Part shown: positions 5,463 to 48,825 of the stretch, in pieces
Numbering within the stretch: position 1 is the first letter of the stretch
Layout: each line of letters starts with the position of its first letter
Source of the DNA: Brevundimonas sp. 357
GTDB lineage: Bacteria > Pseudomonadota > Alphaproteobacteria > Caulobacterales > Caulobacteraceae
Direction of reading: 5' to 3'
Length of the DNA: 64,000 nucleotides
Assembly (NCBI RefSeq): GCF_003938605.1
Contig: NZ_RHWX01000005.1
Span: 62,001-126,000, forward strand
Position numbers and translations under genes: made by a program
Notes under the pieces: generated by a model
The model's input: only the letters and a program-made list of their open reading frames with translations
Databases searched by the model: none
What the model was told of the DNA's origin: nothing

Positions 5463-5634
5463 CCGACGCCAACTCCGACGCCAACTCCGCCGTCATCGCT
5501 CCTCACGCCGTCATCCATTATCTCCGCCGTCATCCTCGGGCTTGACCCGAGGATCCAGTGCGGCGCGCGCTCCACCTAGCCAAGGTTCCGCAGACGGACG
5601 GCTGGATCCTCGGGTCAAGCCCGAGGATGACGGC
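5463..5634. repeat. Palindromic doublet, family A copy 1, with iterated leader
   Basis: Two 32-nt arms, 5526-5557 and 5603-5634, are exact reverse complements of each other. Each arm is itself a hairpin with core CCTCGGGCTTGACCCGAGG, and a 45-nt spacer containing CCGCAGACGGA separates them. Upstream, 5463-5486 holds two exact copies of CCGACGCCAACT, followed by three degenerate copies of CCGCCGTCATC that lead into the first arm. The layout resembles REP doublets. Related copies are at 14443-14551 and 48608-48717. Confidence 0.88.
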
Positions 5635-6688: not shown

Positions 6689-6723
6689 GCCGTCATCCTC
6701 GGGTCAAGCCCGAGGATGACGGC
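6689..6723. repeat. Single family A hairpin
   Basis: A lone copy of the family A arm forms a perfect 15-bp stem (GCCGTCATCCTCGGG and its complement) with loop TCAAG. It sits between the convergent exported protein and ABC ATPase genes. There is no T tract on either side. Confidence 0.85.
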
Positions 6724-47389: not shown

Positions 47390-48307
47390 TTATTCCGCCG
47401 CCCAGCTTTCCAGCAGCCGCCGCGCGATGGCGTAGGGCGGCGGAGGTTGGATGGTCGGGTGCGTCTCGTCCAGCACGGCGCGCGCTTCGCTGCGTGTCAA
47501 CCAGGCGACGGCCTCCAACTCGGTCTGGTCGGGGGCGGCTTCGTCGGTCGTGACCTCGGCGATCAGGCCGATCATCAGCTGGGCCGGGAAGGGCCAGGGC
47601 TGGCTGGAGTGGTAGCGCACGTCCGACACCGTCAGACCCGCTTCCTCCATCACCTCGCGGGCGCAGGCTTCCTCGATTGCCTCGCCCGGCTCCATGAAGC
47701 CCGCCAGCGCCGACATGCGACCGGCGGGCCAGGCGGCCTGACGGCCCAGCAGGCAGCGCGGCTCGGCTCCGCCCTTATAGACCGGCAGCATGATGACGAC
47801 CGGATCGACGCGCGGAAAATGCTCGGTCCCGCAAGCCGGACAGACGCGCTTCCACCCGCCGGACGCCTGGTCCGACGCCTTGCCGCAGGCGGCGCAGAAG
47901 CCGTGACGGCGGCGCCAGTCGAACAGGCTCTTGGCCGTGGCGGCGATGCCGGCGTCGGCTTCGGGCAGGACGACCGCCGCCTCGCGCATCTCGACAAAAC
48001 GGCCCAGGCCTCCGGCGGGACCGCTGGTCGGGTCGATGGAGCCCTCGAACTCGGCGGCGAAGACCGGCGCGCCCTTCCACAGCCCCAGAAACACATCACG
48101 ATCGCGCGCCAGATCGCGCGCATGGCCCAGCGACAGCCAGACCAGCCGCTCGGCGCCCTCATGGGTCTCGATCAGCGGCCGCCCCTCCCACAGGATCATG
48201 GCCAGGGCTTCGGGGTTGGCCTCCTGCTCGGCCAGCCAGGCGGCGTCGTTGCGAAGGTCGCCGGAGCGGTCGAGCGGATTGCCGGAAAAGACGTTGCGAT
48301 GGGACAT
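47390..48307 (-). CDS. nudC: NAD+ diphosphatase / NAD decapping hydrolase (Nudix)
   Basis: This Zn-ribbon Nudix hydrolase cleaves NAD(H) or NAD-capped RNA. The 305-residue product has an N-terminal domain, four zinc cysteines (FCAACGK and RVCPACG), the Nudix box GFMEPGEAIEEACAREVMEE followed by AGL, and the diagnostic SQPWPFPAQLM motif. Length is normal for the longer NudC subgroup. It converges with kdsB and is divergent from the SRP RNA. Confidence 0.96.
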   Translation of the reverse strand: MSHRNVFSGNPLDRSGDLRNDAAWLAEQEANPEALAMILWEGRPLIETHEGAERLVWLSLGHARDLARDRDVFLGLWKGAPVFAAEFEGSIDPTSGPAGGLGRFVEMREAAVVLPEADAGIAATAKSLFDWRRRHGFCAACGKASDQASGGWKRVCPACGTEHFPRVDPVVIMLPVYKGGAEPRCLLGRQAAWPAGRMSALAGFMEPGEAIEEACAREVMEEAGLTVSDVRYHSSQPWPFPAQLMIGLIAEVTTDEAAPDQTELEAVAWLTRSEARAVLDETHPTIQPPPPYAIARRLLESWAAE

Positions 48308-48345
48308 GACGCTTCATAGCCTTGAGCGCGCGTGCAGGGGAGGGC

Positions 48346-48374
48346 TTGATTCCCGCGCCGTCCGCCGTCATATC
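48346..48374 (+). promoter_or_regulatory. Promoter of SRP RNA gene
   Basis: TTGATT and CATATC are separated by exactly 17 nt. They are placed so that transcription would begin about 7 nt downstream, at the first base of the RNA helix. Confidence 0.6.
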
Positions 48375-48378
48375 CCCT

Positions 48379-48474
48379 CTCGGAGATCGCGGGCGAAGGC
48401 TTCGCCAACCTGGTCAGGGCCGGAAGGCAGCAGCCACAACGAATTCCCCTTCGGGTCGCGGTCTCCACCTTTCC
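48379..48474 (+). ncRNA. ffs: Small signal recognition particle RNA (4.5S type)
   Basis: This is the RNA core of the bacterial SRP. The conserved apical region AACCTGGTCAGGGCCGGAAG then GCAGCAGCCACAACG carries the GGAA tetraloop and the asymmetric loop bound by Ffh. Flanking sequences pair: GGAGA with TCTCC, CGCG with CGCG, CGAAGG with CCTTCG. TTTTTT after the RNA serves as a terminator tract. It lies upstream of DUF3597 and the dnaX-ybaB-recR block, an order also seen in other bacteria. Confidence 0.95.
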
Positions 48475-48485
48475 TGATTTTTTAG

Positions 48486-48573
48486 TGCGCTATCGTCGAT
48501 CACGCGGTGATCGACTGCTTGAGCGCGTTTATGCGCTATCGCTCGTGACGCGGTCACGAGCTGCTTGAGCGCG
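48486..48573. repeat. Tandem hairpin pair with compensated stems
   Basis: Two units repeat at a 46-bp interval. Both have the same 10-nt left flank TGCGCTATCG, the same loop GCG and the same 13-nt right flank CTGCTTGAGCGCG. The 8-bp stems differ: TCGATCAC/GTGATCGA (48496-48514) against CTCGTGAC/GTCACGAG (48542-48560). Both are perfectly paired. Confidence 0.9.
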
Positions 48574-48607
48574 CCGTCCCCTACATCTCCACCGCACCCG
48601 CATCTCC

Positions 48608-48717
48608 GCCGTCATCCTCGGGCTTGACCCGAGGATCGAGTTAAACGGCGTGCTCTGTCTTGCCGATGCCCCGCAGACAGATGGCCCGATCCTCGGGTCA
48701 AGCCCGAGGATGACGGC
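48608..48717. repeat. Palindromic doublet, family A copy 3
   Basis: The 31-nt arms 48608-48638 and 48687-48717 are exact reverse complements. The 48-nt spacer contains CCCCGCAGACAGATGGCC, aligning with the spacer of the copy at 5.5 kb. Confidence 0.88.
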
Positions 48718-48825
48718 GAGGGAGGGGCGAACGGCGGCGTGGAAGGCCCATCGCGCAAGCTTCACGGAACCGGGCCGCGCCTCATTCGCTGAAAGGGCTT
48801 CGATCCCCTCATCAGGAGCAGGCGA

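Follow-up and report, generated by a model that had tools for sequence, protein, structure and literature searches.

Tandem hairpin units behind ffs as probable copies of a REP-like repeat family of Brevundimonas

The two hairpin units that follow the SRP RNA gene ffs in Brevundimonas sp. 357 are probably copies of an interspersed, REP-like repeat that spans Brevundimonas, works as a hairpin at the DNA level and was placed by an enzyme acting in trans, and their link with the SRP RNA is positional. Such a family bears on an open question about REPs, namely whether their folds persist because of an RNA role, a DNA role or mutation alone, and copies in 108 of 112 genomes together with one series from an orthologous site make a natural data set on these elements.

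The units behind ffs and their relatives

The window analysed here is a stretch of 64,000 nucleotides, in which ffs occupies positions 48379 to 48472 of the plus strand (RF00169, 64 bits), the Rfam match stopping before the units. A T tract at 48478 to 48483 (+), which sequence and flank composition mark as a family feature, precedes the core of unit 1 (48487 to 48526, +; 58.7 bits, E 1.4e-15 against a family covariance model built from 46 copies). The core of unit 2 (48533 to 48572, +) has the same frame with a different inner stem and scores 62.2 bits (E 1.1e-16), and the two cores lie head-to-tail on either side of the spacer GTTTAT (48527 to 48532, +). No other part of the window matches the model well, the next match having an E value of 0.039. 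When folded alone, each unit has a 5-bp outer stem (GCGCT/AGCGC), an asymmetric internal loop (ATC/TGCTTG), a 9-bp inner stem and a GCG loop, and when both are folded together (105 nt, one fold) the outer stems re-pair across the units. One relative (G072) has an identical unit 1 at its ffs site, together with a unit 2 that is shorter by one base and whose stem differs.

A sequence-only reading of the region had described two 42-nt units with common flanks and a common loop, and these are exact at 48486 to 48527 and 48532 to 48573, with 0.00 expected from 100 shuffles. The left stem arms, TCGATCAC and CTCGTGAC, differ at five of eight positions, and all five changes are compensated on the right arms. 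The 8-bp stem that it proposed is thus compensated as claimed but is one pair too short, the inner stem having an extra closing G-C, and the identical flanks make up the 5-bp outer stem and the internal loop.

No Rfam family matches the units at the gathering score, nor up to E 5 within 48300 to 48800, and the SRP RNA and a tRNA are the sole matches at the gathering score. Weak matches to microRNA families at 48596 to 48737 were rejected, as they sit on a palindromic REP pair downstream of the units. This pair consists of two GTC-tagged REPs in opposite orientation (48611 to 48714; matches at 48611 on the plus and 48689 on the minus strand), which belong to a different repeat family and lie in the same intergenic region as the two units. 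Further oppositely oriented GTC-tagged pairs occur in the window at 5529/5606, 14446/14523 and 16194/16282, with single copies at 6692 and 42456. The window has 12 hairpin rows of this kind, two hairpins being counted once per strand, which leaves 10 distinct ones. The arms are ATCCTCGGG/CCCGAGGAT in 8 of these and different in 2, so that the contrast originally drawn between the diverging stems of the units and the constant arms of the window's REP doublets mostly holds.

Searching for the frame in this genome and its relatives, as the sequence-only reading had suggested, revealed dozens of further copies and hence a dispersed family of which ffs is one site. In the 3.29-Mb genome (61 contigs), 28 sites fit the frame with at most three mismatches, against none for a reversed-pattern control, and at least 57 matches to the model were obtained at E≤0.0012 from 150 scored candidates. 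Most of these 57 listed matches are held by contigs C11 (the dnaA contig), C55 and C59. The exact frame is present in 31 of 37 Brevundimonas genomes and in none of 24 genomes from other genera of the order (reversed-pattern control 0). Of the six Brevundimonas genomes that lack this frame, four are near-complete and give 21 to 54 model matches, and the remaining two (G005 and G006) are of low completeness and lie outside the model search. Over the wider sample, model matches at E≤1e-6 are found in the 108 genomes mentioned above, with 5 to at least 60 in each, these counts being lower bounds from about 59 scored candidates per genome; the other four genomes have no match at this threshold.

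The full-form unit is rare outside Brevundimonas. A class-wide sample searched with stricter filters gave a single weak match in each of 2 of 238 genomes from outside the genus, and weak matches (E≤0.001) occur in 5 of the 24 genomes from other genera of the order (26 in G039, 6 in G047, 3 each in G048 and G056 and 2 in G060), where the unit at each of four inspected loci has a short stem and a loop identical or similar to that of the family. Among the matches listed in a wide locus scan, 50 of 80 loci are labelled Brevundimonas, and the 30 with other labels include several unstructured chance matches and several real units. Such short-stem units, again with an identical or similar loop frame, are found at L374 (from G039) and L134, both from other alphaproteobacteria (one labelled Methyloceanibacter). 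Family copies also occur at L067 (several), L068, L081 and L117, all on contigs labelled as one Bordetella MAG, where the label or the binning may be wrong. Plasmids and phages gave no match to one 40-nt copy (blastn, E≤0.01); a looser viral scan with 17 fixed bases produced matches of scattered lengths, and those loci were excluded from copy counts.

Covariation among copies and at orthologous sites

Aligning the stems and counting covarying pairs gives strong covariation, both across copies and at the orthologous ffs site. Over 45 distinct units, standard pairs fill 88.0% of pair cells compared with 74.4% after shuffling, and 71 double-change cells compare with 21.8 (none of 500 shuffles being as high), counts which are not independent because the copy set combines orthologues with paralogues and was partly found with fixed patterns. 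As a control, sliding the pairing partner along the same units gave at most 14 double-change cells. The outer stem also varies (GCGCT, GCCCT, TCCCT, CCGCT, GGCCT, CGGCT and others) with partners that mostly match, and the part that varies little comprises a C-G and a T-A pair below the internal loop, this loop minus its first two bases and a G-C pair above it, a constancy that is partly by construction in that the copy-collecting patterns fix some of these letters.

One part of the stem behaves differently. Of 288 copies, 187 have an uncompensated 2x2 mismatch in the lower inner stem, where CTCG faces CTCG. Above this mismatch, nearly every common type has four complementary pairs. Uncompensated stem changes in copies elsewhere, which the sequence-only reading had named as evidence against itself, are found at CTCG/CTCG, and the rest of the stem covaries. 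Its proposal that structure rather than sequence is kept in a conserved frame is borne out as regards covariation, a pattern that fits selection and a mutational cause alike. In the commonest 40-nt form, CTCG is a 4-nt direct repeat flanking an 11-nt apical palindrome, and three 25-nt copies are without this CTCG-flanked apex, which looks like either the insertion of an apex with a duplication or its loss via slippage.

A match to ffs was found in 111 Brevundimonas genomes, this one included, and 91 downstream flanks were read (30 loci, a further 60 loci and the window); one (G102) was incomplete, so that 90 were used, and 20 of the 111 genomes were left out. A 40-nt unit begins 18 to 28 nt (once 43 nt) past the GGTCTC of ffs in 62 of the 90 flanks. 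Among the other 28, 12 hold variant, shortened or interrupted units as judged by eye (a looser pattern flags 10) and 16 have none. The copy at ffs is thus in the same place in most species examined, with stems that differ by compensated changes: across 52 distinct units the double-change cells number 78, where shuffling gives 22 on average and at most 34 in 1000 shuffles, and the paired share of cells is 83.9% against 72.4% after shuffling. Flanks with a unit are also T-richer than those without one, with a mean of 5.73 against 3.69 in the best 8-nt window (ranges 4 to 7 and 2 to 5; n=74 and 16; p 3e-8).

Several ffs flanks depart from the common form. Variant loops (ATG/CGACTTG-like) are seen in G066, G107, G031 and G078, and in G012 and G014 another palindrome lies within the apex of the unit, the frame being otherwise kept. 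In G113, G021, G018 and G115 a GTC-tagged palindrome seems to replace the left half of the second unit, as if one repeat family had landed inside another.

Recurrent copies are not limited to ffs, and at three sites in one 12.5-kb region (G000, contig C55) relatives carry units with altered or swapped inner stems. At C55:23516 a unit is present in all eight relatives that have both flanks, and its outer stem is GCCCT/AGGGC or close to it; the unit is of the 40-nt form in two relatives and measures about 30 nt in the others and in G000. The site C55:32890 lies near a gene start, and of the 18 relatives in which both its flanks are present, 14 have one or two units and 4 have none. At C55:29357 the content varies, with one relative lacking a unit.

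Paired changes of this kind could also arise from mutation and not selection, if polymerase template switching copied one arm onto the other so that stems changed in two-sided blocks, an explanation that we consider somewhat unlikely. It is favoured by ten genome pairs that have near-identical 20-nt spacers ahead of the unit at ffs and yet differ in the unit itself, six of them by two to five compensated pairs with zero to two one-sided changes and four with no compensated pair; by a site at which whole inner stems are swapped (30-nt against 40-nt form) within the same outer stem; and by 24- and 25-nt forms that resemble slippage between the CTCG repeats. The commonest form, however, retains its CTCG/CTCG mismatch uncorrected, arm-copied forms are rare (CTCG/CGAG 3, CGAG/CTCG none among the 40 types listed), and mutation alone leaves the near-fixed internal loop unexplained. 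Arm-copying was separately checked in the lower-stem types and was not clearly upheld.

Strand neutrality and genomic placement

If the fold were an RNA fold on one strand, G-U pairs should exceed A-C pairs on that strand. In 185 distinct 40-mers, with the two mismatch columns omitted, the stems have 30 G-T and 32 A-C oppositions, and in the 36 distinct 40-mers that lie in sense between two genes there are 5 G-U and 8 A-C. The SRP RNA of the same genomes served as a control (76 distinct sequences) and gave 27 against 0, counted over the 25 pairs at which a Watson-Crick type is the most frequent. The contrast between the hairpin family and the SRP RNA is significant (Fisher p 4e-7), with the qualification that RNA-folding software chose the SRP pairs from this same alignment, a procedure biased against A-C, and that related copies are not independent. 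The pattern used to collect copies also fixes 3 of the 12 pairs wholly or partly, and one of these can show G-T and not A-C (2 of the 30), a bias that leans against the DNA reading. The GTC-tagged REPs gave 1 G-T and 5 A-C in 17 distinct stems, too few to weigh.

The second line of evidence is placement. Of 233 distinct copies in the fetched loci, 204 lie outside script-called genes and 29 inside, in a set that includes loci with other labels, excludes viral loci and is not independent, as it contains orthologues and exact-pattern finds. For the 202 copies between two called genes, 51 are in sense, 54 antisense, 60 between convergent and 37 between divergent genes. With G-T about equal to A-C and a balanced gene orientation, a DNA-level hairpin is indicated, and the fold apparently acts as DNA and not as RNA.

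That the hairpins work instead in transcripts, for example by stabilising 3' ends, stopping an RNase or signalling the processing of the SRP RNA, with RNA folding keeping the pairing, is accordingly quite unlikely in our assessment. In favour of it, all units counted behind ffs are in sense (in a scan that covered the sense orientation only), the unit frame there is kept while the sequence downstream, by eye, is not, and, where the upstream gene is co-oriented, roughly half of the copies begin within 12 nt of its stop codon (median 12 nt, n=111). Against it stand the wobble counts, the near-equal numbers of sense and antisense placements and the lack of an Rfam family at the units. For the same reasons, namely copies beside many genes in all orientations and no excess of G-U over A-C, the suggestions of a small structured RNA and of a processing device of the SRP RNA find no support.

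The edges of the copies are placed unevenly. Of the 202 intergenic copies, 135 have their 5' edge closer to a gene than their 3' edge (p 2e-6), the antisense class alone giving 30 of 54 (p 0.50). The stop codon of a co-oriented gene lies no more than 10 nt ahead of the start of 50 copies, and 38 start within 25 nt of a divergent start. In the 94 copies whose upstream gene is over 40 nt away, T makes up 52 to 80% at positions −8 to −4, which puts the tract on the 5' side, and the flanks are composed of a T tract, a purine-rich position and G/T on the 5' side and of G followed by G/T on the 3' side. Intrinsic transcription terminators might be expected from GC-rich hairpins that often lie directly past stop codons, but the T tract is on the wrong side, T amounts to just 5 to 33% over the first six positions 3' of the hairpin, and placement is independent of gene direction, all of which makes terminators highly improbable. 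The idea of a transcription-stopping device of the SRP RNA loses ground with them, its T tract lying 5' and its relatives lying beside many genes in all orientations.

On three complete chromosomes (G009, G012 and G036), 17 of 20, 28 of 34 and 27 of 33 loci fall in the densest half (p 0.0295, 0.0025 and 0.0045), with Kuiper p values of 0.053 (not significant), below 0.0002 and 0.0026. A distribution centred on dnaA was not upheld in all three: the loci no more than a quarter genome away from this gene number 14 of 20, 24 of 34 and 17 of 33. G012 also has a 4.1-kb duplication of 99.95% identity with three family copies (C1, about 1302448 to 1306535 and 1977500 to 1981587, the second copy reaching the edge of the sequence examined), which was considered as a transposon and rejected, its contents reading as type II secretion-like genes, as named from translations.

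Concentration in one half of these chromosomes, a strand-neutral constraint and recurrent positions by the same genes in several species would suit a cellular DNA-binding site, duplex or cruciform, that serves chromosome organisation, was spread by duplication and is held in place. Such a site is unlikely in our view: copies are not centred on dnaA in all three chromosomes, four Brevundimonas genomes of the wider sample have no match at E≤1e-6, and stems free in sequence are unlike a normal duplex site. A frame kept genus-wide at ffs nevertheless also fits a cellular function.

A REP-like family and its comparison with known REPs

The reading that we prefer, a REP-like repeat placed in trans, would involve a protein that recognises the internal loop on folded single-stranded DNA, or on a cruciform, with the stems merely scaffolding the shape of the loop, so that pairing would be kept and stem sequence left free. 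The loop is the likely recognition part because, by analogy, TnpAREP contacts an irregularity in the REP stem (PMC8266576). Copies would have been placed beside T-rich tracts by some enzyme acting in trans, perhaps a non-standard one given the failure to find the usual REP transposase, and the copy at ffs would be an old resident that was duplicated head-to-tail in some species, including this one. It is possible, if tentative, that the family is a third REP-like kind, in which the tag is the asymmetric internal loop, an enzyme other than Y1 moves or binds folded single-stranded DNA, and sites are as old as the genus; with only shape and loop being read, stems would drift in compensated blocks while the element persists at sites such as ffs.

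The searches for a mobilising enzyme bear on this proposal. Y1_Tnp is not found in this genome and is absent from 36 of 37 Brevundimonas genomes, some of them incomplete, while 5 of 14 control genomes match, Caulobacter vibrioides and E. coli among them. Neighbouring genes fall into 212 clusters, of which the 25 largest show no transposase and read as ordinary cellular genes, so that enzyme and movement are both inferred. Among the sites compared across relatives there was no clean empty site with a defined junction, and the earlier suggestion of a mobile hairpin family with diversifying stems is the best fit in kind, with no movement seen.

The kind of element is already known. GTAG and CGTC REPs are described as palindromes of 20 to 40 bp with many copies, intergenic and often near the 3' ends of genes, and most GTAG families divide into sub-families with alternative complementary stem residues (PMC3733652). 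The same account places CGTC-tagged REPs mainly in alphaproteobacteria, with no dedicated transposase, and it is because of this lack and of the complementary stem sub-families that the present family can be assigned to a known kind. Titles and abstract openings of the best matches in the open-licence literature gave no description of this repeat family, and the main texts of PMC3733652, PMC12306157 and PMC2817692 do not mention Brevundimonas or Caulobacter. What the analysis adds to the REP question is a strand-neutral wobble test that favours DNA, and a missing transposase that asks what spreads or holds such repeats.

Placed beside known systems, the family adjoins the SRP RNA (RF00169) and is distinct from it, the Rfam match ending at 48472 with the units outside it and dozens of relatives elsewhere. 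Group 2 REPs have a conserved stem irregularity that is contacted by TnpAREP, an upper stem read largely without specificity and recognition as a single strand, as presented in PMC8266576, and the present hairpin resembles them in having a conserved irregular zone; group 2 REPs need GTAG and an HUH Y1 transposase (PMC8266576), neither of which was found for the present family. Like GTAG and CGTC REPs, it is a short intergenic palindrome with tens of copies and complementary stem sub-families, and unlike them it has, by flank composition, no GTAG or CGTC end tag, its near-fixed part being an internal loop between variable stems, with a T-rich tract 5' of it. Inverted dimers prevail in the REP super-families and head-to-tail ones are rare, whereas 7 of 9 close pairs of the present family are head-to-tail (this genome only; both members at E≤0.0012, starts less than 100 bp apart). 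Within the literature searched, it is this loop-based tag, the T tract and the head-to-tail pairing that are new with respect to known REPs.
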